Shown here in pieces: positions 22,845-39,317 of a DNA stretch of 40,774 nucleotides. Made by a program: the position numbers and the translations under genes. Source of the stretch: Anaerolinea sp. (lineage in GTDB: Bacteria > Chloroflexota > Anaerolineae > Aggregatilineales > Phototrophicaceae); assembly GCA_014879865.1 (NCBI GenBank), contig JACSRG010000272.1:1-40774 (forward strand), read 5' to 3'. The notes under the pieces are model-generated. The model was given only the letters and a program-made list of their open reading frames with translations. It had not been told where the DNA came from and searched no databases. How positions within the stretch are numbered: the first letter of the stretch is position 1; every line of letters starts with the position of its first letter.

Positions 22845-23981
22845 TTATTCATAATAGATTATTACCTGCAATAGTGCACTTATCGGAATGCGCTCTTGCT
22901 CTAACCTAAGATTGCGCTCCACCAACCAGCGATACAACCGTCGTTCTTCTTCATCGAGTTCCGGCAAATCGATCAAGGGTGCAGGCGTCCCCTCGACCAC
23001 ATACTCGGCGTAAGCATCGAAAGTCGTTCGATCCATCAATACCGCGCGAATGACTGCCGTTGGCAGTGATCGACGCAGCAGCGCCAAAATCTGAAACCCT
23101 TGTGCGTCCAGATCGCCCCAGTAGTACAGCGGACATTCAGACAACCATCCGACCTGCCCTAGCTGCTCTACTGCAAACCCCTGACCAAAAATTGCAAACG
23201 TCTCCGGGAGCATCGGCAGGCGGAGGAACGGCAATTTGTTCTCGACGATCAAACCGCGCTGCGATCGCAGATTTAGCTGGTTCAAATCCGGTACTGGCAA
23301 ACTGATGTCGGTCAGTGCCAACCCAAAGCGACTCTCAAGCTGATTGTCCAGCAGTCGTATCCGCACCAAGGGCGCATCTTCGTGCAGACCAAACCGTCCA
23401 GCGAAGTGACTTGCTTCCGACTCCCCCTGCCCCGGTGACAGCAGCGCGTCGAGCAGTTCGCGCAAGATACGTTGGTGGGTCTCGACGAACTTTGTATGCA
23501 CCGGGATCGGCAGTTCACGCATCGACAGCGCGGGCTGCGGATGCTCCTGAAAGTAGGCGCATACTTCGAGCAGCGCATCCCATTCGCCGTGATGAACGAT
23601 CACCTTCAGCGGTGAAGCGATCATCCACGCCTCTAAAGCCGGGACGCGCTGGCGGATCAGCGAAACGTCATTGACGAAAGCCTCATATTCGGCTTGTTTG
23701 TCGATGAGGCGCAGGAAAACATCGGCGCTATCCACCCACACAGCGCGCGGTACCGACTGCTTACCCCACTGCCGAAACGTACGAGTCTCGCGCTCGATGC
23801 GGCACCTTTCCCTTTCAAGCGGATCGAGACGCGCCGCCGCCGCGCGCAGTTCGCTGAACTGCTCAGGGAGTTTCCCGACCCGGACTGACAGCGCCGTGAA
23901 AGGCTTGTTCTCAAGCAACTCTCGCAGAAAAGTCTCGTAGTGGCGTGCGAATTTTTGCCGCACCGCATCGGGCGTCAACAT
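22845..23981 (-). CDS. jetD: Wadjet protein JetD (DUF3322/DUF2220, Toprim-type nuclease)
   Basis: WGKQSVPRAVWVDSADVFLRLIDK, LIVENKLPFLRLP, IFGQGFAVEQLGQVGWLSECPLYYWGDLDAQGFQILALLRR, LMDRTTFDAY; last gene of the jetABCD order. Confidence 0.92.
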   Translation of the reverse strand: MLTPDAVRQKFARHYETFLRELLENKPFTALSVRVGKLPEQFSELRAAAARLDPLERERCRIERETRTFRQWGKQSVPRAVWVDSADVFLRLIDKQAEYEAFVNDVSLIRQRVPALEAWMIASPLKVIVHHGEWDALLEVCAYFQEHPQPALSMRELPIPVHTKFVETHQRILRELLDALLSPGQGESEASHFAGRFGLHEDAPLVRIRLLDNQLESRFGLALTDISLPVPDLNQLNLRSQRGLIVENKLPFLRLPMLPETFAIFGQGFAVEQLGQVGWLSECPLYYWGDLDAQGFQILALLRRSLPTAVIRAVLMDRTTFDAYAEYVVEGTPAPLIDLPELDEEERRLYRWLVERNLRLEQERIPISALLQVIIYYE

Positions 23982-23987
23982 GGATGG

Positions 23988-26900
23988 CTATCGGGGCGCT
24001 GACTGCGTATTTTGTTCATATTCGGCGCGCTGCGCTTGATATTCTTCGACGGTCAGGTTGCGGATCCGTGACTCATTCCCCTCCATGTTATTGACCACAT
24101 AGTGATAAGCGCCGACGTAGTGTTCGACCACCGGAATCTTGTCCAGTGGCGTCACGACGAGCAGTTGCAGCCCAAGCCCTCTGAACAACTCCATAGCATA
24201 TCGGGCATTGGCGTCATCGACCTTGCTGAACGCCTCGTCGATCATCACGAAGCGGAAGCTCTGCCGCGCCGGAAGCTCATTGATTGCGTACTGGTATGCG
24301 ACCGCCGATGCCAAAATGGTATACGCCAGCTTGGCTTTTTGACCACCCGACATCCCCGCCGAGTCGCTGTGATACCGCCGCTGGCTGTGATCATCGCGCC
24401 ACAATTCCTCGGCAGCGAAGTTGAGCCAGCGCCGCACGTCAGTGACCTTTTCCGCCCAGCGTTCATCGGTTTCAAAGCGCCGGATCAAAGCCCGGATGCG
24501 CATAAACGCCGCCTCGTTCGCGGCAGCATCATTCCCGACCGTGTTTTCAGTGCAGTCGCGTAGTTCGGCACGAAACGCGCTGATCTCCGGTTCTTGCGTT
24601 AGCTCATAGCGAAGTTGAATATAGACCGAAGTCTCATACGGAATATGCACCAGCGAACTATTCAAGCGGTCAATGACATCGCGGTAGGTATCCACCTGCC
24701 GTTCGAGATCGGCGCGGAAGCCCGCGATATTGTCGATCATCTTCTTGTCCAGCAGTTCTTTGAACCGCCGCTCGAACCGGGGCAAATCCTCACTCTGGAT
24801 ACGTTTGAGCAAATCCTCTAAACCCGGCAGCGCGGCTAAACCACTGCCGATGCTTTCCGTTTCTGCCCTGAATTCTGAGCGGAAATTGGCGATGCGTTCG
24901 ACCAGCGACTGCTCAACTTTGGCGCGCTGATTCTGGTACGTCTGCGCCCGGTTAGAGAAGTATTGACGCATGCGGTCTTGCGCTGAACCAACGTTGTCGA
25001 GACTGAGCGGATCACGGATCAGCTTTTCCAACTCACGATGTATGACTTTCCCCTCTGTTTGCCACATTTCCACCGGATGCTCGCGTAACTCAGCCTCCGC
25101 CTGTTCCAACTGGCGCTTATGCCGGGACAGATCGCTGTTACACGTGCCGATCACCGAATTGAGCCGGTACAACGTATCTTGAAGGTCTTTAGCCTCTTCT
25201 TTCAGCGCATCATGCTGCTCTTGGAGCGTGCGGCGGCGATCTGAACTCGCCTCAAGTCGGCGCTGCTCCTCGATATTCGCTTCATACGCTTGCAGCGGAG
25301 TTCGCCAATCAATCTCTTGGAAGTCTTCAAAGCTCAAGAACTTCCGAATATTATCCTGCCGGGTCTGCGCCTGCCGTTCCCCCTGCTGCGCCCGTTGACG
25401 TTCCCCTTGCAGCTTTTCGATCTCCCCTTGTAGACCCTTAAGCTGTGCGCGCAGCGATTCGAGCTTAACGCGGTTGTCCCATCCTAAAACGTAGCGCGAA
25501 TAATCGCGGATGTTGTACCGGTCATCCTTTTCGTAGCGCGTTTCATCATGCTTGATCTGACCTTCAACGGTGATCCCGCGTCTCTCATGATGCAGTTCGT
25601 CAAGGCTCGCGCAGCACACGTAATCGAACTTCCGGCTGATCTCCGTGCGCAGCCACTCGCCAAACGTGGTATCAGGATGAACTTCAACCTTGCGGTAAAC
25701 AACGTTTGTGGGCAGGCGGGAAAGATTCACAGGGGATGTTTCCTGCACCCGCTGATAGACCAACCTCCCATTGAGGTGATGGTCATTCACATAGCGGCTT
25801 AAACGGGCATAAAAGCGCGACTCGACCAGCAGATTGAGCGCAAAGCCATGCAACAACCGTTCAATCGCCCCTTCCCACGCCGCCTCTTCTTCGCGCACGC
25901 GCAGCAGTTCGCCGGCAAAGGGCAGCGCATTCGCGTCAATTTTCAGCGCGCGCGCCACCTGTTCGCGGATTTCTAGACTCACGCGGGGAATTTGCGTGCG
26001 CCGCTGTTCCAGCGAAGCGATGTCAGCCTCAAGTTCCTTCAACGAGTTCATGCGCGGAGTAAGCTGTACAATCGCCCGGTCTGCATGTTTGCGCGCTTCT
26101 GCCTCAAAATTGATCAACTCAGGCAGTTCTGCTTCTGCCTGCGCGCGGTTGGCATGAAAACTCGCCGCGTCGATGGCTTCGCCCAAGCCGACATCCTCGG
26201 CGGCTTCCGTATAGCGGCGTGCCTTCTCTTGCTTTTTATTGCGCTCCCGACTTAAGTCTTGAGCCTCATCCTTGAGCCGCTGAAGCGCGCGCCCGATTTC
26301 ATCTGCTTCGAGTTCGGCGCGCAACCGGCTGATCTGGCTGTCGGTTTTCTGTTTCTCTGCCTCAAACTGCTGAAAACGCGTCTGATGTTCAGCTAAATCG
26401 ACCTGCACTTGCTTCATTGCCACAGTCAGCAGTTCGTATCGCTGATAGGCAAAATAGAGCGGCAGCACCCTTTCACAGCGCGTAGTCTCTTCGATTTGCC
26501 CATCAATCTGCTGCCAACGAATCGACTCATCGTGGATCGGCAGCAGTAGATCGCGCTGCCGCTGCGCCTTCAAAATCGCTTCGTGTGCTTTGGTCAAATT
26601 CTCGTAGTTATCGCGCAATAGCTGGATTTGCTGCTCGATGTTCGTTCGCTCCAGCATGTGATCGCGGACAAACTGATTCAGGCTGCCAATCTCTTTGATC
26701 GACACGGTTTGATTGAACAATTCGAGCGCCTTTTCCGAGCGCAACCCCAGCAAACCACGAAATTTACTGCTGTAGTCGTTGAATTGGTCGTTGACCTGTA
26801 CGCCTAAACCGCGCAGACGTCGCCGCAGCGCATTTAGCGTCTCAAATCCCGCAAAGTGTTCTTGAATTGAGAGTGGAATCGACGCTGTGAAGTAATCGAC

Positions 26901-27311
26901 CTTCGCCCCACCCTCGGTAAACACCTGTGCAATCGTGACGAATTCCGGCTTTGCCCCCGGACTATGAAAGACCGCCAGCAGCACACTGTAATTGGTCTCA
27001 TCGCGTAAGTACTGCACCTGCCCATCATAGCCGCTTGCCTCGCGCAGGCGGCTGTACGCGCCCCGGACATAGCTTTTGATCGACCGCTCCCGGCGGTTAT
27101 CACCCGACGCTTGGTTATAGCTGCGCTTTCTGCCCGGCACCAGCAGCGAGAGCATCCCATCGACCAGCGTCGATTTGCCCGAACCATTCGCGCCCGTCAG
27201 CAGTGCCGTGAACCGCTCTGGCGCAATCTGCCAGATACGCTTGTCGAACGTTCCCCAGTTATAGACCTCGAACCGGTACAGTGCGTAGCCTGCCTCAATG
27301 GGTTCAATCAT
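23988..27311 (-). CDS. jetC: Wadjet protein JetC (SMC/MukB-like ATPase); probable start at 27311
   Basis: Walker A TGANGSGKSTLVDGMLSLL; long coiled coil; signature SGGQKAKLAYTILASAVAYQY; Walker B FRFVMIDEAFSKVDDANARYAMELF. Confidence 0.95.
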   Translation of the reverse strand: MIEPIEAGYALYRFEVYNWGTFDKRIWQIAPERFTALLTGANGSGKSTLVDGMLSLLVPGRKRSYNQASGDNRRERSIKSYVRGAYSRLREASGYDGQVQYLRDETNYSVLLAVFHSPGAKPEFVTIAQVFTEGGAKVDYFTASIPLSIQEHFAGFETLNALRRRLRGLGVQVNDQFNDYSSKFRGLLGLRSEKALELFNQTVSIKEIGSLNQFVRDHMLERTNIEQQIQLLRDNYENLTKAHEAILKAQRQRDLLLPIHDESIRWQQIDGQIEETTRCERVLPLYFAYQRYELLTVAMKQVQVDLAEHQTRFQQFEAEKQKTDSQISRLRAELEADEIGRALQRLKDEAQDLSRERNKKQEKARRYTEAAEDVGLGEAIDAASFHANRAQAEAELPELINFEAEARKHADRAIVQLTPRMNSLKELEADIASLEQRRTQIPRVSLEIREQVARALKIDANALPFAGELLRVREEEAAWEGAIERLLHGFALNLLVESRFYARLSRYVNDHHLNGRLVYQRVQETSPVNLSRLPTNVVYRKVEVHPDTTFGEWLRTEISRKFDYVCCASLDELHHERRGITVEGQIKHDETRYEKDDRYNIRDYSRYVLGWDNRVKLESLRAQLKGLQGEIEKLQGERQRAQQGERQAQTRQDNIRKFLSFEDFQEIDWRTPLQAYEANIEEQRRLEASSDRRRTLQEQHDALKEEAKDLQDTLYRLNSVIGTCNSDLSRHKRQLEQAEAELREHPVEMWQTEGKVIHRELEKLIRDPLSLDNVGSAQDRMRQYFSNRAQTYQNQRAKVEQSLVERIANFRSEFRAETESIGSGLAALPGLEDLLKRIQSEDLPRFERRFKELLDKKMIDNIAGFRADLERQVDTYRDVIDRLNSSLVHIPYETSVYIQLRYELTQEPEISAFRAELRDCTENTVGNDAAANEAAFMRIRALIRRFETDERWAEKVTDVRRWLNFAAEELWRDDHSQRRYHSDSAGMSGGQKAKLAYTILASAVAYQYAINELPARQSFRFVMIDEAFSKVDDANARYAMELFRGLGLQLLVVTPLDKIPVVEHYVGAYHYVVNNMEGNESRIRNLTVEEYQAQRAEYEQNTQSAPR

Positions 27312-27903
27312 TATCGGCACGCTCCCCATGTTCCGCCAACCGCTGCTTGATCAGCTCAAGCTGATCCGAATCGATCTTGGCTTTCAAGACCGGTCGCACC
27401 AAATAGTCGATCTGCTTCTCGCGCTTGATCTCTTTCAGAAAGCCGAATTCAACCACCTGATTGAGGTCGCGCTCCATAAGCTTCAAACGGGCGCGTTCAT
27501 CTTCTTGCTGCGCGTAAAACGGCTGCATGATCGTCAGCAACGCTTCTCTCGCAAGGATCAGGCGGTAGTTATCGACGTCCGTTGTATCGAACTGATTCAA
27601 CTCCTCCCGCAGCAAAACCAGCAGCACCGTGACCGAATAGCTCAGCGCGCGCCGGCGCACCAAGCGCGGCAAAGGCGCGGTGATGCCTAACTCCTCCTCA
27701 TCCGGCTGCGTCAGATAAGCGAAGCCCTCATTTTCGTTCAGATAAAGCTGCACGCCCATTTGCGTGAAATAAGTGCTGATCGGCGTCTGGTAGCGCAGGA
27801 CAAGCCCCCACACGTCATCATCCGCATACACTATCCCTTGTAGAAGCCGGATGAGCGCCGCCGCGTAAGGGCTGGGTCCTTCTCGAATATCATCTTGAGT
27901 CAT
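27304..27903 (-). CDS. jetB: Wadjet protein JetB (DUF4194)
   Basis: LIRLLQGIVYADDDVWGLVLRYQTPISTYFTQMGVQLYLNENEGFAYL; sits between jetA (4-nt overlap) and jetC. Confidence 0.92.
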   Translation of the reverse strand: MTQDDIREGPSPYAAALIRLLQGIVYADDDVWGLVLRYQTPISTYFTQMGVQLYLNENEGFAYLTQPDEEELGITAPLPRLVRRRALSYSVTVLLVLLREELNQFDTTDVDNYRLILAREALLTIMQPFYAQQEDERARLKLMERDLNQVVEFGFLKEIKREKQIDYLVRPVLKAKIDSDQLELIKQRLAEHGERADND

Positions 27904-29345
27904 GGTCGATAGTGTCCGTAAACAATATGCGGAAGCCGCAAACGTAACTTACTGGTGCCGTCGGTGAGCGTAAGCGCGATCTCGTCATAACGCTCGGTAT
28001 CAATCTGGTGCTGTGGCGACTCGTCGGCGATTTGAAGATATGCCAGCAGTTCCGCCACCCCCTTCCCCGGTGGATAATGCTCCAATACTTCGACCAACGA
28101 AACGGACGGGGATTTTTCCAGCAGTCGTGCTAATTGTTCGCGCAGCAGATCAAGATCGACATAAAACTGAGCATACAGCGCCTGCAATGCGCTTAAATCA
28201 TCTTCCTCTCCGACCAGCAGATCGGGAGCATCCACTTTTGTATTCAAACCGGGACTCCACAAGGGACGATCCATGATCACGCTGATATCCGGCGCAGTTT
28301 CAAGCACGAAGAACGCGCCTTCCGGTGGATGTTGGCTATGCTCAAAGGCAAGCTGCTTGATCTCCGCGCACAATGCGCGTACTCGCTGATTCTCGGCAAG
28401 GGTCTGCTCGTCAAGCATGCGACGAAGCTGTTCGGAAAGCTGCTGGTTCGAAGCGATCACTTTTTGTCCGGCATCCAACAGGCGTCTTGTCAGCGACGGA
28501 AGGATCGAGGAGTCACGCAGCGCGGCAAGTTCCGGCAGCGCATGAATCGCCCTGATCAACTCTGCCAGTTCGTCCTTTTGCGCCGGGATCAGCAAATACT
28601 GCCAGAAAGCGCGAAAGCTCCGCCCCTCGTCAGACGATTCGAGCGCCTCGTCCGCATCCAACACATCACCCAGTACGACGCCTCTTTGAACATTCGGACG
28701 CAGAGTCGCCTCCTGTGTCTTCCGCGCTAAATCCCGGAAATTCTGCTCCACAGCGGCGAAGTCGCTTAATAGGCGGACAGCATTTTCATTCACCTGCAAG
28801 AATCGCTCGCGTATCTGCGTTTCGTTGTAGCGCTGCACCCGCCCTGTCGTCTCGATTGCGTCGATCTCGCGTTGCAGCGCCGCCTGCTGTGCGCGCAAAA
28901 ATAGCATACGCTGTTCCGGGTCTTCTGTACTGTTCGCGATAATCTCGCGCAGTGTCTCGAAAATACTGCGGAAGCGTGATTCAGTGCCAACAAACGGACG
29001 CTGGCGTAGTTCTTCAAACCACCGGATCACGCGCTCGGTTTCGGACGTGAGGTCAACCATCCACGCGTTTTCCGTACCGGCATAGATGCGCAGCAGCCTC
29101 AGCTCCTTGCTCCACGCATCAAGATATTCCTTTGCGGAACGCGGAAAACTGCCCGGTTGTTGTTCATTCAGCCGATCCAGCATGGCATCTAAGTTACCCA
29201 ACAGTTCGTCGTATGGAACAGTGACTCGCTGCTGCTGTTTGAACTGCTCGTAAAAGAAGCTGACGATCAGCGGAGCGTGCTGCTGGCGCAGAAGTTTTAA
29301 GCTGGGGCTGTTCTCCAAATCAGACTTGATCTGCGCGAAATCCAT
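27900..29345 (-). CDS. jetA: Wadjet protein JetA (DUF3375)
   Basis: SLKLLRQQHAPLIVSFFYEQFKQQQRVTVPYDELLGNLDAML...YLDAWSKELRLLRIY...; first gene of a four-gene operon in canonical order. Confidence 0.92.
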   Translation of the reverse strand: MDFAQIKSDLENSPSLKLLRQQHAPLIVSFFYEQFKQQQRVTVPYDELLGNLDAMLDRLNEQQPGSFPRSAKEYLDAWSKELRLLRIYAGTENAWMVDLTSETERVIRWFEELRQRPFVGTESRFRSIFETLREIIANSTEDPEQRMLFLRAQQAALQREIDAIETTGRVQRYNETQIRERFLQVNENAVRLLSDFAAVEQNFRDLARKTQEATLRPNVQRGVVLGDVLDADEALESSDEGRSFRAFWQYLLIPAQKDELAELIRAIHALPELAALRDSSILPSLTRRLLDAGQKVIASNQQLSEQLRRMLDEQTLAENQRVRALCAEIKQLAFEHSQHPPEGAFFVLETAPDISVIMDRPLWSPGLNTKVDAPDLLVGEEDDLSALQALYAQFYVDLDLLREQLARLLEKSPSVSLVEVLEHYPPGKGVAELLAYLQIADESPQHQIDTERYDEIALTLTDGTSKLRLRLPHIVYGHYRP

Positions 29346-29423: not shown

Positions 29424-29487
29424 TAAGTTACCCAACACTTGCTAAGTTACCCAACATGATTTACCATATATGTGTTGGGTAACTTAG
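29424..29487. repeat. Cluster of three TAAGTTACCCAACA(C) sites: two direct (29424-29438, 29443-29456) and one inverted (29472-29486); 15-bp perfect inverted repeat 29442-29456/29473-29487
   Basis: Read directly: taagttacccaacac / taagttacccaaca / gtgttgggtaactta between divergent jetA and the orphan gene. Confidence 0.95.
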
Positions 29488-29495
29488 AAAAGATC

Positions 29496-30194
29496 ATGCC
29501 GAGAAGCATTTACCGCAGCACACCACTGCTGCTAGACCAAGTCCTGCATCCACCCGGAGCTTCGCAGCGCGAAAGCGTTATTCCCGTCGATTCTCCGGAG
29601 TGGTTTCGATGGCTGGAAACAGGATCACGCTTCGCTTACCGGCTTGAACTCGCGGGCTGGCGTCCACACACGATCACCTTCCGCTCGGAAAAGAAGCAGC
29701 GCGGCGGCACGTACTGGTCAGCGTACATGAAAGATCAGCTCGGAAAACTGCATAAGCTCTACGCGGGCAAACTGGCGGAGCTAACTTGGGAGCGCATCAG
29801 TCACATCCTCGACGCTATGCGCGAGAAACTGACAGCCGCCGCCCCAACTTTAAGTTACCCAACACATCCGGCTGCAAAAGAGAAACAAGCAGCGGGCAAG
29901 CAGACACAAACACTACCGGCTTTGACCGCCCAAGATGTCGCGCAATTTCACCGCTATGATGCACTGCTAACTTTTTGCAGCGAGGCTTTCGAGCAGCGCT
30001 GGGGGCACGCTTGGCGCTGGGAAAACGGCAAGATTTACCGCAACACCTTCGACAAGTACTACTACGTGATGGATCAATCCGGCGAACAGAAGCATATTCT
30101 AGGAAAGCAGCGCTATTTCGTTGTAGTTCAGCTGCTGCATTGGGTAAATCACGGCTACGATGAAGGGTACAATGATAAGTTATCCAACACGTGA
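29496..30194 (+). CDS. Hypothetical protein with a putative integrase-arm/AP2-like DNA-binding region
   Basis: SPEWFRWLETGSRFAYRLELAG...ITFRSEKKQRGGTYWSAYMKDQLGKLHKLYAGKLAELTWERI resembles N-terminal regions of Chloroflexota LuxR/MalT-type regulators and integrase arm-binding domains (recalled, not searched). Confidence 0.6.
   Translation: MPRSIYRSTPLLLDQVLHPPGASQRESVIPVDSPEWFRWLETGSRFAYRLELAGWRPHTITFRSEKKQRGGTYWSAYMKDQLGKLHKLYAGKLAELTWERISHILDAMREKLTAAAPTLSYPTHPAAKEKQAAGKQTQTLPALTAQDVAQFHRYDALLTFCSEAFEQRWGHAWRWENGKIYRNTFDKYYYVMDQSGEQKHILGKQRYFVVVQLLHWVNHGYDEGYNDKLSNT
29851..29865. repeat. Fourth exact TAAGTTACCCAACAC site, inside the orphan ORF
   Basis: ctttaagttacccaacacatcc; encodes LSYPTHP in an Ala/Lys/Gln-rich linker. 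Confidence 0.9.
30176..30190. repeat. Fifth, one-mismatch site TAAGTTATCCAACAC at the 3' end of the orphan ORF, 15 bp before the recombinase ATG
   Basis: gataagttatccaacacgtgaggaggcgacgatg. Confidence 0.8.
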
Positions 30195-30204
30195 GGAGGC
30201 GACG

Positions 30205-31062
30205 ATGCTCGAAGAATTCGAACAACATCTGCGCGAAGAACTCGACTTATCCGACAAGACCATCCGTGCCTACCTCTCTGATGTACGTCAGTTCGGGCAG
30301 TGGTATGAGCGATGGGCAGACCGCGCCTTCATGCTCAAAGATATTTCTACCCCTACCCTCACTCGCTACCGTGCCAACCTTATCGAACGCCTCAAGCCAG
30401 CTAGCATCAACCGCCGCATTGTCAGCCTCAAGCGCTTCTTCGCATGGGCAGTCGCTACGGGCATGATCGAGCGTGACCCGGCGAAACCGCTCCGGCAGAT
30501 CAAAGACGTTCCACCACCACCGCGCCACCTGACCGACCAAGAAGAAGCAGCACTGATGTCCGCAGTTAGCAAATACGGCACCAACCGCGACGTTGCCCTG
30601 ATTACGCTGATGCTGCACACTGGCATCCGCACCGCCGAACTCTGCGACCTGACCCGTGCCGACATCAAAATCGCTCCTCGGAGCGGCACAATCACTATAC
30701 GCAAAGGCAAAGGCAGCAAGCGGCGCGAGATACCGCTCAACATCACCGCGCGCACCGCTCTCAACGCCTACCTGCCCGACCTAGCAAGCGATGCCGCTTA
30801 CCTGTTTCCCGGCAGGAATAACCAGCGCCTCACCGAGCGCGCGGTCGGCTATGTCATCGCCAAATTCGCCCATCTCGCCAAACTGAAAGACCTCAGTCCG
30901 CATGATTTGCGTCATCGCTTCGGCTACCGCATGGCAGAAAACACGCCGATCCACCGCCTCGCCCAGCTCATGGGACACGACTCGGTCGATACCACCCTAC
31001 TCTACATCGGCGCGACCGCTCAAGACCTTCAAGCTGAAGTGGACAAAATCGCGTGGGAGTAG
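30205..31062 (+). CDS. Tyrosine recombinase/integrase (XerC/XerD-like)
   Basis: N-terminal SAM-like domain FEQHLREELDLSDKTIRAYLSDVRQF; catalytic HTGIRTAELCDL, SPHDLRHRFGYRMAE, LMGHDSVDTTLLYI; ATG at 30205 with GAGGAGG upstream. Confidence 0.93.
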   Translation: MLEEFEQHLREELDLSDKTIRAYLSDVRQFGQWYERWADRAFMLKDISTPTLTRYRANLIERLKPASINRRIVSLKRFFAWAVATGMIERDPAKPLRQIKDVPPPPRHLTDQEEAALMSAVSKYGTNRDVALITLMLHTGIRTAELCDLTRADIKIAPRSGTITIRKGKGSKRREIPLNITARTALNAYLPDLASDAAYLFPGRNNQRLTERAVGYVIAKFAHLAKLKDLSPHDLRHRFGYRMAENTPIHRLAQLMGHDSVDTTLLYIGATAQDLQAEVDKIAWE

Positions 31063-31071
31063 GCTAGATTT

Positions 31072-31800
31072 CTAAGAAACCTGCCCTACCTGCTTCAACA
31101 GTTCGTGGATTTGTATCATCAACGTGTTGATTTCCCGCTCATGCTGTTCTTGAAGCTGTTTGATGGATTTCTCTTGTTCTGCCTGAACCTCCATCAGCTC
31201 TCTGCGAAGCGCCCTTACTTCGTCTTGGAGTACCTCAATAGTCAAGAGATAGCTCTCTCGCCGCTTACTTGAGATTCTCGCACTTTGCTCGAACTGTGTT
31301 ATTTGCGCCCGTTGACGATCTATAACAGCTTGCATCTCATCTAATGTTATGGGGTTTGGGGGCGAACTTTGGTGCCTAAAAGTCTCGCTAGAAGAGCTCG
31401 CTTGTGAAGTCGAAGAACTTTTGACAGTGTCAAAAGCCGCCGCCTTTTTAGCAAGTTGATCTCGTTTTACCTGAGCCTTATAAACGACTTGAGCAACCAA
31501 TTCATCACTGTCATTTTCAAACCAAGAATACACTTTTCGATAAACGGTTTCGCTGTAACGAAACCATTCTTTTCTATTTGGAAGGCTGTGAGCACCAACA
31601 GCTCGAGTTTTCGCCAAAAGCAAAGCTTCTAACTCAAGCGCCTCTATTTCATCAATACACGCAATGTGGCTTGCAAATCGCATGTGTAAGGCAGCAATAC
31701 GTTGTTTTGGGCGATTTGTTTTTCCGATCTTGAAGATCTGAATGTCCCTAAGTTCCCCTACAGCCAAGTAAACAAAGCTAACCATCAGCTCTCTTTTCAC
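31072..31800 (-). CDS. GIY-YIG/T5orf172-like nuclease-domain protein with long C-terminal coiled coil
   Basis: VYLAVGELRDIQIFKIGKTNRPKQRIAALHMRF, ALELEALLLAKTRAVGAHSLPNRKEWFRYS; heptad-rich C-terminus. Confidence 0.72.
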   Translation of the reverse strand: MKRELMVSFVYLAVGELRDIQIFKIGKTNRPKQRIAALHMRFASHIACIDEIEALELEALLLAKTRAVGAHSLPNRKEWFRYSETVYRKVYSWFENDSDELVAQVVYKAQVKRDQLAKKAAAFDTVKSSSTSQASSSSETFRHQSSPPNPITLDEMQAVIDRQRAQITQFEQSARISSKRRESYLLTIEVLQDEVRALRRELMEVQAEQEKSIKQLQEQHEREINTLMIQIHELLKQVGQVS

Positions 31801-32398
31801 CTAAGCGATATTTTAACTCTGCAATTTGTGTGCGGAGTTCGCTGAGCTTTTCCTCGTACTCTCGGACAAGCCTAATCGACTCTGAAGTCATTTCACGAAC
31901 AACTACATCGCGATAATCACGTTCTTCTCGGATTACACGAGCTTCTACTTTACTAAGCGCTTGTTGCAGCTCGGCGATCTGGGCACGTTGTTCTTCTTCT
32001 ATCTCTCGTAGTCGAGTGATCTCTGTTTCCAACTCTGCTACTTTCGCAAGCGCGTGATCTCGCTCTGCCGAAGTAATCAGCGCTCGTGCAGACTGCTCCA
32101 CTTGATGCATTGGCACTGTGCGAGGATCGGCGCTAAGAGCATTTTGAGGAAACTCTTCAGCCCGCTCACCTGCATCCAGCGCGTCTGCAATTTCCTTCCA
32201 ATCCACAACACCTTGTGCGCGTTTGATTCGGATTGTGTTTAGCACGAGGAGATCAGATTGCGTCAAGATGCGCTGCGCAGAACCGTCCTCCATACGCGCG
32301 CTTGACGAAAAGAAACGAGATAACTCAGGATGTTGTGTCCAGTTGTAGATAGTGTTTCGATCCACTCCTAGGATTTTCGCAGCTTCTCCGGACCTCAC
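31778..32398 (-). CDS. MerR-like HTH protein with C-terminal coiled coil
   Basis: MRSGEAAKILGVDRNTIYNWTQHPELSRFF HTH; AELETEITRLREIEEEQRAQIAELQQALSKVEAR coiled coil; overlaps the GIY-YIG gene by 23 nt. Confidence 0.75.
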   Translation of the reverse strand: MRSGEAAKILGVDRNTIYNWTQHPELSRFFSSSARMEDGSAQRILTQSDLLVLNTIRIKRAQGVVDWKEIADALDAGERAEEFPQNALSADPRTVPMHQVEQSARALITSAERDHALAKVAELETEITRLREIEEEQRAQIAELQQALSKVEARVIREERDYRDVVVREMTSESIRLVREYEEKLSELRTQIAELKYRLGEKRADG

Positions 32399-32649
32399 CT
32401 TATGACTCCAATCTGATTTCGCTAAACCTCTGAATCTGAATTCTTGCTTTTGTTCCTTGAATGGCGTATTATACTTTTAAGTGCCGATTTATTCAAACAA
32501 GTTTATGAAAATCAGCAACCGGATTCACGTATTCACATTCTAAATCGACCCATTTATATAAACGAGATATAAAACTCGTGCTTTCCAGCCTATTCAGACT
32601 GCTTTCGCGAATCATAACTCGATTTAACCAGAATGGAGAAAAACCGCCA

Positions 32650-33816
32650 ATGCCTCCAAAAGCTGCAACATCCGACTCGTTAGTTGACGAAAATTTCATC
32701 TCTTCCGACGCAGGAAACGGTTGGGCAGCCTGCTACCGGCTGGTCAATGGCAAGGTGAAACAGCACGGCATTCCGCACGCGCGCGCCCGGGTCACCGGGG
32801 CAAAACTGGATACCGATATAGGCGCGCAGAACACCGCCGACTACGCCGATTTTATGGGGCAGCGTTATGGCTACGGTGATGGTATCTGGAACTTGACCGA
32901 CGCGCCCATCGACCTGCACCAGAACACCGCGCGCCGCTACGGCGGGAACATGCACATCTTCTTGATGCTGGTCAACATCGCCGAGATGAACGTTAAATCC
33001 GGCAGCGAGCTCACGCTCATCGTTCCAGCGCCACCCGGCTTACTGAACGAAGTAGGACCGCAAATCAAAAAATCCATCCTCGCCGGGGAATCCGGGAAAA
33101 ACGACGGAGTCTGGTCCATTCAACTGCGCAAGGACAAGAAGCCGCGCGAATACAAGTTCATCCGCGTGATTACGCTGCCGGAAGGGGCAGGAGCCGTCGC
33201 CGCCTACCGTTTCAACCTTGCCGGCGACCTCGTCGATCTCAAGGACAAAAGCGGCGGAGACATGCTCGCCGGGCGCATCGCCGTGCTTGACCTTGGCGCA
33301 GGTACGGGCGACACCTACACCATCTTCAACGGCAATCTCAACCCGGATGCCATCGCTACGGCAACTGACGACAAAGCGGGCGTGATTCACAACCTGCTCC
33401 GACCCATCCTCAGCGATGTGCTGAGCGCCGTTCCCGAAGCCCGCCACCTGACCACCGCTCATATCGACAGCTACCTGCGCCGCTACATCGCCAATCCAAC
33501 CCCCGAAGCCGCCACCGTGCGCGTCGCGGGCAAAAATGTCAACTTCGAGAAAAGCATCCTTGCCAACTGCGAACGCTATGCTGAATGGATCGGTGCCAAC
33601 AAGATCGATCCCCTCTGGGCGGCGGGGACAGACGCGATTGTCCAAGCGGGCGGCGGCTGGATTTACATTCAATCGTGGATCAGGAAATGGTACCCGGAAC
33701 GCCTCATCCTGTCGCCGGAAATGTTCCCACATACGCGCAACATGCCGCTCTATGACCTGAACGGCATCGGACAGCTTTCGTTTGCTGCCGCGATCATGCG
33801 CCAGCAGCAGCCGTAG
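32650..33816 (+). CDS. Actin-like ATPase, ParM/Alp-type
   Basis: Phosphate-1 SSDAGNGWAACYR, phosphate-2 AVLDLGAGTGDTYTIFNG, adenosine motif QAGGGWIYIQSWI; ATG at 32650 preceded by GGAG. Confidence 0.82.
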   Translation: MPPKAATSDSLVDENFISSDAGNGWAACYRLVNGKVKQHGIPHARARVTGAKLDTDIGAQNTADYADFMGQRYGYGDGIWNLTDAPIDLHQNTARRYGGNMHIFLMLVNIAEMNVKSGSELTLIVPAPPGLLNEVGPQIKKSILAGESGKNDGVWSIQLRKDKKPREYKFIRVITLPEGAGAVAAYRFNLAGDLVDLKDKSGGDMLAGRIAVLDLGAGTGDTYTIFNGNLNPDAIATATDDKAGVIHNLLRPILSDVLSAVPEARHLTTAHIDSYLRRYIANPTPEAATVRVAGKNVNFEKSILANCERYAEWIGANKIDPLWAAGTDAIVQAGGGWIYIQSWIRKWYPERLILSPEMFPHTRNMPLYDLNGIGQLSFAAAIMRQQQP

Positions 33817-33828
33817 GGGAGGAAAACC

Positions 33829-34224
33829 ATGCAGCGTTCTCAAACTCAAAAGCCGGGGAATGGCGAAGGGCAGGGCGGGGCGATCAGCCTCGTCTTCGAC
33901 CTCTCCGATCCGCTGGAGCGCGAAGCCTACGAGATGGCGAAACAGCTTGCCCGACCGCATGGACGCCGCAAGCATGTGATTGTGGCGCTGCTTTACGGGT
34001 TGAGCATGTATCAACGTCGCACTGGCATTGAGTTGAACACTGATTTGGTGATGGGGATGGCGGTTTCCGGTAATCTTATCGGCGGGGGCGGGCTGGATAT
34101 CTCAGCCACTTCACGACCAATGACCCTTGATGAGCCAACCGTCGTGATCGCCACCGCCGAGAAGGGGACTAAAGAAGAATTCGCCGCGAACTTCTTCTCT
34201 AGCTTCGGAAATTTCTTGGATTGA
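33829..34224 (+). CDS. Small protein downstream of the actin-like gene; possible segregation adaptor (ParR-like position)
   Basis: 131 aa, 12 bp after the actin-like stop; ISLVFDLSDPLEREAYEMAKQLARPHGRRKHVIVALLYGLSMYQRRTG. Function inferred from position and size. Confidence 0.55.
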   Translation: MQRSQTQKPGNGEGQGGAISLVFDLSDPLEREAYEMAKQLARPHGRRKHVIVALLYGLSMYQRRTGIELNTDLVMGMAVSGNLIGGGGLDISATSRPMTLDEPTVVIATAEKGTKEEFAANFFSSFGNFLD

Positions 34225-34668
34225 TTACAGTCTTATCTGGACGCGCCGGACGAGCGCCAACCACATACGCTGACTCATTCGTACAGGCAGTAGCATCACT
34301 CCAGCTACTGCCTGAAAGCCGCCACCCTCACGTTGAACCCCCGCCACCACTCCCAGCACTTGATCCGCGGCGACGCTTTCGGCGCGCCCGAACGACGCAT
34401 CTCCACGAACAAGATACGTAGAGCAGGGGGCATAACGCACCGCGACAATCCGGTGAACAACGGCGCGTCCCTGCCGGTCGCGGTACAAAATCACGCTGCC
34501 AACCCGCAGCTCGTCGGCGCGATGCAAGCACACGCGCAGCGTATCACCGTCTTGAATCGCGGGGGACATGCTGCTTCCCCGCGCGCAGAATTCCAGCACA
34601 CCGCCACGACTAAGCACCTCTTCCGCCAGTGCCAGAAACGACGCTTGATCGATCTTCAACGTGTGCAT
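34225..34668 (-). CDS. S24/S26 (signal peptidase I-like) family peptidase
   Basis: FCARGSSMSPAIQDGDTLRVCLHRADELRVGSVILYRDRQGRAVVHRIVAV: SxMxP serine motif and RxVVHRIV region. Confidence 0.8.
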   Translation of the reverse strand: MHTLKIDQASFLALAEEVLSRGGVLEFCARGSSMSPAIQDGDTLRVCLHRADELRVGSVILYRDRQGRAVVHRIVAVRYAPCSTYLVRGDASFGRAESVAADQVLGVVAGVQREGGGFQAVAGVMLLPVRMSQRMWLALVRRVQIRL

Positions 34669-35513
34669 CGTACAAGGTCGATGACGTCTGAGTCGGGGAC
34701 GAAATGCAGACTAGAGCAGGGGACTTTTCTCGCCAGCGCGGTCATAAAATCGATCGTATAAACCGTCGCCGCCGTGTTCCAAATGACGGGAAAACAGCGC
34801 GTCAGCAAGCCTGCGACAGCGGCGCTGCCATCCACTGCATTGACCACATTCTTCGGCGCATGATACAGAAAAAAGATGCGTTCCAACTGGACACGCTCCG
34901 GTCGAAATTCGGGAAACAGCCCGTGCCACGGAGTGCCGTACATCCAGACCGCGCCATCTTCGACGCGCAAGATGATCCGGTCATCATTCAATACCGCGCC
35001 TTGTCCACTCTCCGTCCACAACCGCGCCAGCGTCGATTTACCGCTGCCCGAACTCCCGCTAAACAAATACCCGCGTCCGTGATCATCCACGCCGCACGCA
35101 TGCATCATGACCCCGCGCCCCTGCGCTAGCAGCAGCACGGTGAGCAGTTCCGGGAGAGGGTGGGGGATAGGGCTGTAAGCGAGTTTCGTCAGATATAGAT
35201 TGCCTTGACTGAAATCCGAGGAGAATACGCCGGTCAAGTGTGGCAAACCGGATTCTTCATGCACGCCGAGCGTGATGACCTGCTGATTGCCGACTCCGTA
35301 CAGCTTCCATACACCACCGGAGTCAAACAGCAGTTTTGCATTCCCTAAACACACCGGCGGCTCAATACCATAATGCACATTGAGGTGACAGTCAGCAGGT
35401 TTATCGGTGAGGAAGCCGCGAAATTGGCGCGATACCCAATCCTCGTCCAGCGGGAGATCGCTGGTGATTTCGATGACAATCCCCGCGATTTCGACAGCGA
35501 CAGACGTGATCAT
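34656..35513 (-). CDS. HPr kinase/phosphorylase-like P-loop protein
   Basis: GYLFSGSSGSGKSTLARLWTESGQGAVLNDDRIILRVEDGAVWMYGTPWHG; ATG at 35513. Confidence 0.8.
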   Translation of the reverse strand: MITSVAVEIAGIVIEITSDLPLDEDWVSRQFRGFLTDKPADCHLNVHYGIEPPVCLGNAKLLFDSGGVWKLYGVGNQQVITLGVHEESGLPHLTGVFSSDFSQGNLYLTKLAYSPIPHPLPELLTVLLLAQGRGVMMHACGVDDHGRGYLFSGSSGSGKSTLARLWTESGQGAVLNDDRIILRVEDGAVWMYGTPWHGLFPEFRPERVQLERIFFLYHAPKNVVNAVDGSAAVAGLLTRCFPVIWNTAATVYTIDFMTALARKVPCSSLHFVPDSDVIDLVRCTR

Positions 35514-35523
35514 GCCATGTCTC

Positions 35524-35703
35524 TCACGATCCCATATCAAAGCACTGGAAGAATCGCCCGCAAAACTCGCCAACCCACGCGTTGATCAACCCATCATTTG
35601 CTTTACACACCGCGAGTACGGCTTCCTCTGGCACCAGCCGCACTTTGCCCAACTGCGGCTTTTCATACATCCGTCGTGACTCTTGCGCGTTAAGTTCATT
35701 CAT
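35524..35703 (-). CDS. Candidate RiPP precursor peptide, 59 aa: MNELNAQESRRMYEKPQLGKVRLVPEEAVLAVCKANDGLINAWVGEFCGRFFQCFDMGS
   Basis: Small ORF between radical SAM and HPrK-like genes; GGAGA Shine-Dalgarno before ATG at 35703; YxxPxL leader motif (YEKPQL); three Cys; C-terminal Ser. Confidence 0.7.
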   Translation of the reverse strand: MNELNAQESRRMYEKPQLGKVRLVPEEAVLAVCKANDGLINAWVGEFCGRFFQCFDMGS

Positions 35704-35711
35704 TCGAAAGC

Positions 35712-36791
35712 CTAATCTCCAAACTCTATGAGACGTCGCCCCGCAAGCGCGCACGCCGACGGGACAAATGCCTCAGCATCCCCATAGTGCATCTGCGCCA
35801 TGCCCGGACACTGCCCGCAGATCGCGCTCAGGTCGCATAGCTGGCACGGCGACTCCCGCGTGCGCTTCTGGAAGCGCGCCCGGCGCAAAAAGTCGTCCCA
35901 ACCTTCCTGAAACGATCCCTGACGCAGGTCGTAAGCAGGTTTACGCGCCATCAGGCACAGGCTCAACTGACCGTAGGCGTCGATATGAAAGCTGTGGATA
36001 CCCGCACCGCACAGAAACACCTCATCAGCACGGGTAGGAACGCGCCGGAGATCGCGCACAATCCGCCGGTACTCCGCCGCGCGCTGCTCATCCTCACGAT
36101 CCAGCACGAGAATCTCATCAATCGAAATGCTGCTGTCGAGCGGACGCGGATCGCCATCCAAGCGCGTATTCAGCACCGGATCGAAACGGTATGGAATGCC
36201 GAGATCCGCCGCTAACGCCTTCATCGCCGCGAGATCATGTCGATTCTGCTTGAGCACCATGCTTTTGAATTTGAGCGGCAGTCCGTGCGCCCTGACCATC
36301 CCAATGGCGTTCAAACAGCGTCCGAACGCGCTTGTGCTGCCGGTGACCCGTTCATAGGTCTCCACGCTTGCACCGTACAGCGTGATCTCCATCGAGTAGG
36401 GGGGGTATTCTGCGAAGCACTCAACCGCTTCTTCGGTGAGCAGCGTGCCATTGGTGAATACCGTGACGAGCAAACCGAGCCGCTTGGCATGGAGGTAAAT
36501 GTCCAGAAAATCGGGACGCAGCAGCGGTTCACCCCCGGTGATCAGCAGCTTGAGGCAGCCTGCCGCAGCGACCTGATCGAGCACATCGCACACCATCGCC
36601 GTATCCATTTCACGGCTGCGAATATCCCGATCTCCGGCAGGCTGGTTGATGTAGCAGTGAACGCAGCGCAAATTGCAGCGCTCGGTCAATTCGAGCGAAC
36701 CACTCAAGGGCAAGCGCGCCGAAGCCAATTTAGCAGCGAGGCGCTGACCAAATTCGCTTAACGAGAGCTCGGGTAGGGTAGGGCAGTTCAC
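35712..36791 (-). CDS. Radical SAM/SPASM protein
   Basis: ELTERCNLRCVHCYINQ (CxxxCxxC), ITGGEPLLRPDF, C-terminal SPASM-like C...C...CQLCDLSAICGQCPG. Confidence 0.93.
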   Translation of the reverse strand: MNCPTLPELSLSEFGQRLAAKLASARLPLSGSLELTERCNLRCVHCYINQPAGDRDIRSREMDTAMVCDVLDQVAAAGCLKLLITGGEPLLRPDFLDIYLHAKRLGLLVTVFTNGTLLTEEAVECFAEYPPYSMEITLYGASVETYERVTGSTSAFGRCLNAIGMVRAHGLPLKFKSMVLKQNRHDLAAMKALAADLGIPYRFDPVLNTRLDGDPRPLDSSISIDEILVLDREDEQRAAEYRRIVRDLRRVPTRADEVFLCGAGIHSFHIDAYGQLSLCLMARKPAYDLRQGSFQEGWDDFLRRARFQKRTRESPCQLCDLSAICGQCPGMAQMHYGDAEAFVPSACALAGRRLIEFGD

Positions 36792-37129
36792 TGGACGATT
36801 TCCTCGACCGCACCCACTTCGACGAGCTGCTGTAGGAACTCCAGCAAATCGATCTGCGCGACGGCTTGTTCGACGGCAAACTCTCGAACAAGCCTATCGC
36901 AGATCGTGTCGAGGCTGTTGTGACCGTCAAGCTGATCCCAAATGCACGCACCGACTGCGTTTAACGTGTAAATGGCATGCATATCCGCGCTCGTGCGTGC
37001 AATCGGCACGAGCAGCGCTTCATCCGCGATCTTGCGGAAAACGACTGAATGAGAACGTAAATACCGAGTAGTGGGTAGCGACGATGAATTCATGAGATGT
37101 ATTCTGTCTAACTCAAAGATAGTTGTCAT
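36788..37129 (-). CDS. PqqD-family (RRE) protein; start may be 37093
   Basis: VVFRKIADEALLVPI...HAIYTLNAVGACIWDQLDGHNSLDTICDRLVREFAVEQAVAQIDLLEFLQQLVEVGAVEEI; 4-nt overlap with the radical SAM gene. Confidence 0.9.
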   Translation of the reverse strand: MTTIFELDRIHLMNSSSLPTTRYLRSHSVVFRKIADEALLVPIARTSADMHAIYTLNAVGACIWDQLDGHNSLDTICDRLVREFAVEQAVAQIDLLEFLQQLVEVGAVEEIVQ

Positions 37130-37238
37130 GATTATCTTATAGTGTAATTAAGCGAAAAAGTGATAGATGTTATACTGCCACTATGACTATTTATTTTTTA
37201 CGAATCGAGCATATGATAGCTTCTACCGCACGATATCA

Positions 37239-38369
37239 ATGAGCACTCAAGACAACACACGCCTTACGCTAACTCATCTTATCGCCGGAGCGTTGAACCC
37301 CGCAGACATCGCCGACGACCAGTGGGATTTGCTCGCTCCGGCAGCACTTGCCGACGGCTTAGCCCCAATGCTGATCCACGTACTACATCAGCACGATTCA
37401 ACGCTGCTTCAACTGCCGATCTTTCGCCCGCTGCTCGCCGACGCTCAACTGGTCACATATCATGTGGCACAGCTTCAAGCCGTGCAGGAGAAGATCGAAA
37501 GTGTGCTCACCGCGCGGGGGATTACGCGCATCTGGCTCAAGGGGATCGCGTTGGCGCAGACCGTTTATCCTGCACCCAACTTACGCTCGATGAGCGATCT
37601 CGACTTCTTCATCCCCTACGAATGTAGAAGCGATGCCCTCACTGCGCTGAAAGACGCAGGCTTCCGCAGCATCGACAGCCATGAACCTGCCGCCGAACTG
37701 CTCGCCGCACAGCATCATGATCGCCTGATGGACGTTTACAGCCGGGGCTTCATCGAGATGCACTATCGTTTATTTGGCGGGGACGTACTCGCCGATGCCG
37801 CTGAAGCATGGTTTCGCCGGCAAGTCTATGTCACCCCGCACGGCTGGGCGGCGCTGACGCCCGAAGCGCAGCTTTTGCACCTGTGCATTCACCATGTGCT
37901 GGTGGACTTCGATCAGAAGCTCCGGCTGGTCCGCTACTTCGACATTCATCTACTGGTGAGTGCCGGAACGCTGAACTGGGAGGTGATCCTGCGCACAGCC
38001 GAGCGCTTCGGCTGGTCGAACGCACTTGCTTACGCGCTGGAGAAAGTATCGTACTGGTTCGGGACGCCTATCCCCGCGCATATCAGCGCGCAGTTGGAAG
38101 CTCAAACCGATGGGCGCAGATTGACGCCGGGCAAGCTGGCACGCGGCGCTGATGCTGCCGGAGCTGACGCCGCGCTGCACCTGTTACAGGCAAGTTCTCC
38201 AACGGAACGCCGGGCGCTGCTGCGCTGGTTCTTGCTGCCACCGGGGGACTATCTGCGCTGCCGCTACCCTGATTATGCGTATCTGCCGATCTGGGCGCTG
38301 TATCCGCTGCGCTGGTCGCTGCAAGCAATCAAACTTGCCAGACTGCTCCTCACACGCTTCACGCTGTAG
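37239..38369 (+). CDS. Nucleotidyltransferase-like protein (NTP_transf_5 type)
   Basis: GITRIWLKGIALAQTVYPAPNLRSMSDLDFFIPYE: LKGxxL and RxxxDLDxxI motifs typical of the family; divergent from PqqD. Confidence 0.8.
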   Translation: MSTQDNTRLTLTHLIAGALNPADIADDQWDLLAPAALADGLAPMLIHVLHQHDSTLLQLPIFRPLLADAQLVTYHVAQLQAVQEKIESVLTARGITRIWLKGIALAQTVYPAPNLRSMSDLDFFIPYECRSDALTALKDAGFRSIDSHEPAAELLAAQHHDRLMDVYSRGFIEMHYRLFGGDVLADAAEAWFRRQVYVTPHGWAALTPEAQLLHLCIHHVLVDFDQKLRLVRYFDIHLLVSAGTLNWEVILRTAERFGWSNALAYALEKVSYWFGTPIPAHISAQLEAQTDGRRLTPGKLARGADAAGADAALHLLQASSPTERRALLRWFLLPPGDYLRCRYPDYAYLPIWALYPLRWSLQAIKLARLLLTRFTL

Positions 38370-38437: not shown

Positions 38438-38872
38438 CTATTCGTTTTCAGATCGGATAATCTCCTCGACCACTGTCTCTGGCGTGACAATCCGCAAACC
38501 AGATTTCTGGGCAACCTCAACCGGATCAATCAGATGTTTCCGGTCATACGTGACCAGATAATCGACCTGAGCTTGCTGTGCTGCTGCCACAATCGGCGCG
38601 TCTTTCTGTACAACATAGGACTCAACCTCGCGAACAGCCTCTAGGGAAGGGTCAGCTACGAGCTCAGCATTGATCAACTTGAGCAGCAGTCTATAACTCT
38701 CAAGTTTATCAGGAGCTTTGCGCGTGATATTGCGTTCCACTTCGGTGAGAACATCACTGCTAACCACCGCTTGCACTCGATTTTGCACAGCTAGCACAAG
38801 CAAATCTCGCGCATAGCCACCGGCGGAATAGGCTGCCGAAAACAGCACGCTGGCATCAAGAAAGACTTTCAT
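38438..38872 (-). CDS. PIN-domain toxin (VapC-like)
   Basis: MKVFLDASVLFSAAYSAGGYARDLLVLA...DVLTEVERNI...DAPIVAAAQQAQVDYLVTYDRKHL. Confidence 0.85.
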   Translation of the reverse strand: MKVFLDASVLFSAAYSAGGYARDLLVLAVQNRVQAVVSSDVLTEVERNITRKAPDKLESYRLLLKLINAELVADPSLEAVREVESYVVQKDAPIVAAAQQAQVDYLVTYDRKHLIDPVEVAQKSGLRIVTPETVVEEIIRSENE

Positions 38873-39149
38873 CGTCTATCTTTCGGGCGTACTTCTCTTC
38901 ATAGATTTCCTGCTTGATTTCACGCCCGCTCTCGATGATCTCCTCTAGCGTGATCCCCTTGCTGCGTAGACCCGCGCCAATATCATCTAATAACCGCTGG
39001 AGGAGCAGTTCTTTCGTGCTGATCAACAAACCTTCGTCCGTTTCCTCAAACACAACCTCGTCTCCTGCCTTGAGGTTGTACTTGCGACGGAAATCAACTG
39101 GCAGCGTGACCTGTCCGCTGTCCTGTATCACATAGCGTTTTTTATTCAT
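38856..39149 (-). CDS. SpoVT/AbrB-type antitoxin (VapB-like)
   Basis: YVIQDSGQVTLPVDFRRKYNLKAGDEVVFEETDEGLLIST; overlaps the PIN gene by 17 nt. Confidence 0.87.
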   Translation of the reverse strand: MNKKRYVIQDSGQVTLPVDFRRKYNLKAGDEVVFEETDEGLLISTKELLLQRLLDDIGAGLRSKGITLEEIIESGREIKQEIYEEKYARKIDDESLS

Positions 39150-39317
39150 CTGGAAGCCGCTCCACACACCCTGAATTATGGTTTTATGGAATTATGGTTG
39201 ATCTGTCGGTCAGAGTCAATTCCGCATCAACTAGAACAAAAGAGCGAAAACCATAGTATAATCAAGCGGCTTGACCCGAATGCTTCCGAAGGACAGTTTT
39301 TCTAGAGGAGAATCAGC

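Follow-up and report, generated by a model that had tools for sequence, protein, structure and literature searches.

The window, the whole 40,774-nucleotide stretch of Anaerolinea sp. DNA that was analysed, contains an operon of five genes encoding a PqqD protein, a radical SAM (rSAM)/SPASM enzyme, a precursor peptide, a kinase with an HPrK/PEPCK fold, and a Ser-His S26-like peptidase. The genes overlap or stand within about 10 nucleotides of one another, and the gene of an NTP_transf_5 protein lies beside the operon in divergent orientation:

34225..34668, minus strand, S24/S26-like peptidase (TIGR02228, 2.8e-10, below cut-off; archaeal/ER-type Ser-His signal-peptidase fold)
34656..35513, minus strand, HPrK/PEPCK-fold P-loop kinase, 285 aa (weak HMM matches, AlphaFold2 model, Foldseek, alignments)
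35524..35703, minus strand, precursor peptide gene, 59 aa (open reading frame with ATG start; homologue conservation)
35712..36791, minus strand, rSAM/SPASM maturase, 359 aa (PF04055, 2.6e-22; SPASM weak)
36788..37129, minus strand, PqqD-type RiPP recognition element (RRE), 113 aa (PF05402, 1.3e-16)
37167..38369, plus strand, NTP_transf_5 nucleotidyltransferase-like protein (PF14907, 3.9e-37)

The PqqD gene precedes the rSAM gene and overlaps its start by 4 nucleotides. The rSAM gene, which ends at 35712, adjoins the precursor gene upstream. The next gene downstream of the precursor is that of the kinase, with its ATG at 35513, 10 nucleotides past the precursor stop, and its end is overlapped by the peptidase gene. 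No dedicated exporter is seen in the operon.

An integrase-like reading frame and a ParM-like ATPase adjoin the cluster (29472-34224), and by eye this region may be a mobile island. A full Wadjet type I defence system, JetA1 to JetD1 according to PADLOC models, occupies positions 22845-29345 on the minus strand. A PIN-domain-like and AbrB-like pair at 38438-39167, also on the minus strand, resembles a toxin-antitoxin module by eye.

The translation of the reading frame 35703..35524 agrees exactly with the 59-residue sequence quoted in the sequence-only reading of this DNA. The YEKPQL motif, the terminal serine, and the Shine-Dalgarno sequence (AGG/GGAG-like) overlapping the rSAM stop, all of which that reading had claimed, are present. 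YEKPQL spans residues 13-18, and residues 21-33 form a conserved VxL.....VLxxC block. The reading was also right about three cysteines, but they are Cys33, Cys48, and Cys54 instead of 34, 47, and 54, two of the three having been off by one. The C-terminus is ...DMGS, with Ser59 as the last residue. Because the only serines are Ser9 and Ser59, and threonine is absent, Ser59 is the sole Ser/Thr residue after the leader. None of the Pfam and NCBIfam models matches the peptide. About 57 distinct homologues, from Chloroflexota, Nitrospirota, Omnitrophota, Planctomycetota, Desulfobacterota, and Methanothrix, occupy the equivalent place beside rSAM, PqqD, and kinase genes, which puts the reading frame beyond chance. 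It is a genuine RiPP precursor, and both the gene and its family are established.

Nearly all homologues share the pattern Y-x2-P-x-[LIV]-x3-V-x-L-x5-[VI]-L-x2-C, a conservation that is partly by construction, since a leader pattern, and later a profile, served to find the precursors. The lasso-type leader with an rSAM partner, pointed out for this one peptide, extends across the family, except that position 6 of the motif may be L, I, or V and is not always L. The first cysteine is positioned exactly 20 residues past the motif Tyr/Trp in 30 of 30 precursors of the first alignment; in the later set of 57 precursors paired with kinases the distance is 20 residues in 51 and 21 in six. All but two precursors of the paired set have at least three cysteines.

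A scan of named genomes with the rSAM protein, on which the sampling outside Chloroflexota rests, identified 36 loci. In most of them a small reading frame encoding the family leader adjoins the rSAM gene, accompanied by PqqD, kinase, S24/S26 protein, and often NTP_transf_5. The gene order is peptidase-PqqD-rSAM-precursor-kinase in Anaerolineaceae and PqqD-rSAM-rSAM-precursor-kinase-rSAM-NTP_transf_5-peptidase in Nitrospira. In profile searches of Chloroflexota, 24 of the 397 genomes searched within the class had a match, as did 14 of 301 at the level of the phylum; since so few genomes have one, the system is a scattered accessory. In the plasmid collection, NTP_transf_5 has no match and the kinase three weak ones.

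Three tandem precursors share one cluster with three rSAM genes in a Nitrospiraceae locus (L052, 6998-7638). One genome (G442; loci L089, L100, and L102-L106) has approximately seven near-identical precursors ending in ...GT on separate contigs, most of them without an rSAM or kinase gene in the stretch examined. At L049, L075, and L078, the kinase and rSAM are encoded in one frame, and the precursors have W-x2-P-x-L leaders and a terminal Ser; these fused-kinase clusters look like a sister system nearer to SynChlorMet. C25 gingipain-type peptidases adjoin the cluster in Anaerolineaceae/Chloroflexota relatives (L022, 7472-11056; L029, 7692-11039; L032, 6103-9387), and some C25-bearing loci have a secreted SpaA/DUF11-type protein upstream. 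A general role of C25 peptidases was rejected, because they adjoin the cluster in several Anaerolineaceae loci but not in general, and no match came up in the source genome, although the control genomes gave none either.

The rSAM protein contains C39-x3-C43-x2-C46 and SPASM cysteines at 261, 279, 316, 319, 325, and (347). Its match to the SPASM model is below the cut-off, although the SPASM cysteines are invariant in the alignment; across its relatives all radical-SAM and most SPASM cysteines are kept. The locus thus has the make-up of an rSAM/SPASM RiPP system, with the precursor beside an SPASM rSAM gene, intact CxxxCxxC and auxiliary-cluster cysteines, and an RRE. That the enzyme acts at the core cysteines would be consistent with their conservation and is plausible, with chances of about even. 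Clusters of Nitrospira and those with a fused kinase contain two or three rSAMs, and the single enzyme here may act differently. A PqqD protein next to a PqqE-like SPASM enzyme, in an operon without an ABC exporter, would also suit a peptide-derived cofactor or redox factor comparable to PQQ or mycofactocin. However, the modified residues of cofactor precursors usually vary hardly at all, whereas the core of this family is hypervariable between and after the cysteines, which are its only invariant residues. A cofactor product is therefore very improbable.

Four components of the locus are of lasso type: the leader motif, PqqD, the kinase, and the nucleotidyltransferase. The family motif Y-x2-P-x-[LIV], here YEKPQL, is accompanied by a PqqD-type RRE that is predicted to bind it. 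The locus could accordingly be imagined as a lasso cluster whose B2 peptidase and cyclase genes were lost, or are borrowed from the other lasso cluster of the genome. PF13471 is found in the source genome on contigs C266 and C419 only, and C419 (locus L111) has a lasso-type cluster of precursor, HPrK-like kinase, Asn-synthetase-like cyclase, B2, and PqqD. The precursor of this cluster, MNNENQAKKVYTQPQVSELGQVSNFVQQNGLAGPIDGPIEYISGFGFSPHQS, has a YxxPxV motif and a terminal Ser and stands next to its own kinase. The two precursors have only the leader motif in common, with a weak profile match, and the PqqD proteins of the two clusters show 25% identity. A lasso cluster was rejected because B2 and cyclase were not found at the locus, where the nearby reading frames of the window carry other domains. 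Moreover, related loci repeat the set of PqqD, rSAM, precursor, and kinase, and the cysteine-bearing core has no conserved Gly1 or Asp/Glu at positions 7-9, so that a reduced or borrowing lasso cluster is improbable in the extreme. The locus probably belongs instead to a RiPP family that pairs an rSAM/SPASM maturase with the tailoring set of phosphorylated lasso peptides.

The kinase contains H138, the P-loop G153-x4-GKST, and the motif NDDR at 177-180. Its HMM matches are weak (TIGR04355, TIGR04249, PF07475), and those to HPr kinase proper are below the cut-offs (TIGR00679, 13.5 versus 240 bits; PF07475, 14.8 versus 33.3 bits). By its sequence, the protein is classed as a superfamily relative of HPrK and not as HPrK itself. 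An AlphaFold2 model calculated from a 25-sequence alignment has a mean pLDDT of 92. Its best Foldseek matches in the PDB are PEPCK and HPr kinases, in this order, with high probability and modest TM-scores, and the fold thereby bears out the HPrK-like assignment of the sequence-only reading. A sequence search of the PDB with the kinase profile yields mainly P-loop matches. The alignments show the P-loop together with its preceding histidine and the acidic pair that follows. The acidic pair is located 18-19 residues past Ser160, compared with 16-17 residues between P-loop Ser161 and the conserved Asp177/Asp178 of Mycoplasma pneumoniae HPrK (PMC11204831).

An HPrK-fold kinase gene beside a precursor ending in Ser is the arrangement of phosphorylated lasso tailoring. 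Pairing of kinases with precursors covered 57 distinct precursors at 52 loci, with seven kinase motifs added by eye from alignments and the rest by script. Kinases with D at position 2 of the motif after the P-loop (D[DE]R; NDDR, SDDR, SDER, NDER, GDER, CDDR, NDDK, NDEY) were designated D-type, and those with E at this position (GED[QTSN]; GEDQ, GEDT, GEDS, GEDN) E-type. Precursors paired with D-type kinases end in Ser or Thr in 40 of 41 cases (Ser 34, Thr 6), the sole exception being L074 with the motif NDEY. In this group 97-98% of the precursors have Ser/Thr as their last residue, as opposed to 10-37% at positions -2 to -12. The first precursor set had been gathered without using the C-terminus, and in it all precursors that accompany a D-type kinase have a terminal Ser. 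Only four of the 16 precursors paired with E-type kinases have a terminal Ser/Thr, whereas C-x-[ST]-[ST] follows the first cysteine in 15 of these 16 and in five of the 41 D-type precursors. Retention with D-type kinases and loss in the E-type clade also answer the objection, anticipated in the sequence-only reading, that homologues might lack the terminal Ser.

The E type forms a single clade in the kinase tree (support 92/86), and the Fisher p-values of about 1e-8 for the association of motif and terminal residue are not those of independent trials, because one or very few switch events underlie it. What gives the sequence comparison its strength is that one terminal residue persists in several phyla and along very long branches, even though the remainder of the core varies. 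The earliest-branching member of the E clade, L077, resembles an intermediate in a D-to-E switch: it still has a terminal Thr, and C-x-[ST]-[ST] is absent. Precursors whose kinase has R or K at the last motif position end in S/T in 40 of 40 cases, and the others in four of 17. The Arg of NDDR is thus an attractive candidate for a reader of the terminal carboxylate, but it is not required, as SDNL takes the place of this motif in the lasso kinase of the source genome, whose neighbouring precursor also ends in Ser.

These comparisons make it likely that the kinase phosphorylates Ser59. The phosphorylation of a terminal Ser proposed in the sequence-only reading gains support from the D-type pairs, but the E-type precursors reveal that the residue is not universal. 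A less likely reading, though one deserving consideration, is that the kinase targets the leader, a small molecule, or a different protein, and that retention of the terminal Ser/Thr has another cause, such as its recognition by NTP_transf_5, the peptidase, or a transporter. HPrK/PEPCK folds phosphorylate varied substrates, PEPCK ranks above HPrK in the fold search, and the D/E switch is confined to one clade. Furthermore, BsfK of the Bradymonas lasso cluster bsf phosphorylates core Ser3 and not the C-terminus (PMC10368454). Set against this are the way in which the terminal residue tracks the kinase motif, with C-x-[ST]-[ST] in E-type precursors and mostly absent from D-type ones, and the position of Ser59 as the only possible acceptor in the core. 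The near-start site of BsfK parallels C-x-[ST]-[ST] of the E-type clade. We tentatively extend the preferred reading, phosphorylation of the precursor, to the family: D[DE]R kinases might act on C-terminal Ser/Thr and the GED[QTSN] clade on C-x-[ST]-[ST], in peptides with rSAM-modified cysteines and a sugar on the phosphate. If so, the family would yield phospho(glyco)-rSAM peptides, a combination of which no report was found.

Ser33 and His72 of the S24/S26 protein are invariant in 11 of 11 aligned proteins, pointing to an active Ser-His peptidase. Leader removal is most naturally assigned to this protein, the probable leader peptidase. NTP_transf_5 recurs in related clusters, and is tied to the pathway by sharing one open frame with the S24 peptidase at L031. 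Phosphorylated lasso systems include paeninodin, ThcoK, SyanK, and pseudomycoidin; the last combines a kinase with a nucleotidyltransferase reported to add a group, e.g. a sugar, to the phosphate (PMC8498205, PMC10368454). By analogy, the NTP_transf_5 protein may follow the kinase in the pathway as a sugar or nucleotidyl transferase.

We infer the following chemical steps. The PqqD protein would bind the YxxP-x-[LIV] leader and hand the peptide to the rSAM enzyme, which would modify the cysteine-bearing core, most simply by forming thioether or other cross-links at Cys33, Cys48, and Cys54. The kinase would then phosphorylate Ser59, and the NTP_transf_5 protein may add a group such as a sugar onto this phosphate, as in pseudomycoidin, a sugar at this site being possible rather than likely. 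Finally, the S26-like peptidase would cut off the leader.

The system has in common with phosphorylated lasso peptides the YxxPxL leader, the stand-alone PqqD-type RRE, the HPrK-homologous kinase, and the terminal Ser. A nucleotidyltransferase belongs to the cluster as in phosphorylated lasso clusters, whose enzymes may or may not be of the PF14907 family. It differs in having an rSAM/SPASM enzyme and conserved cysteines instead of B2 and the Asn-synthetase-like cyclase, with the S26-like peptidase in the place of B2. The cluster bsf is similar in its YxxPxL leader, kinase, and nucleotidyltransferase, but also has B2 and cyclase, as befits a true lasso cluster (PMC10368454). SynChlorMet (SCM; NCBIfam TIGR04248-TIGR04251) likewise brings together PqqD, SPASM rSAM, and the P-loop kinase-like ScmC, with weak sequence matches. 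An SCM cassette was rejected, because the scores are far under the curated cut-offs (ScmC 20.2/125, ScmD 27.7/100, ScmE 80.9/400, and ScmF 74.1/400 bits), and, unlike SynChlorMet, the operon has one rSAM. Sactipeptides and ranthipeptides resemble the system in their SPASM rSAM and conserved core cysteines, but the stand-alone PqqD, kinase, and S26-like peptidase set it apart; the StsB, AlbA, SkfB, and PapB models give no match above cut-off.

Each part has a known relative, whereas both their combination and the joint shift of kinase motif and acceptor seem not to have been described in the literature searched; open-access articles contained no description of RiPPs with rSAM and HPrK. Because kinase motif and acceptor site vary in nature, the specificity of the kinases can be tested directly, and the window precursor offers a clean substrate for this, its core having only one Ser/Thr that could be the acceptor. 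One gene set, occurring in uncultured Chloroflexota, Nitrospira (with three rSAMs), Omnitrophota, and a methanogen, joins rSAM-modified peptides and phosphorylated lasso peptides.
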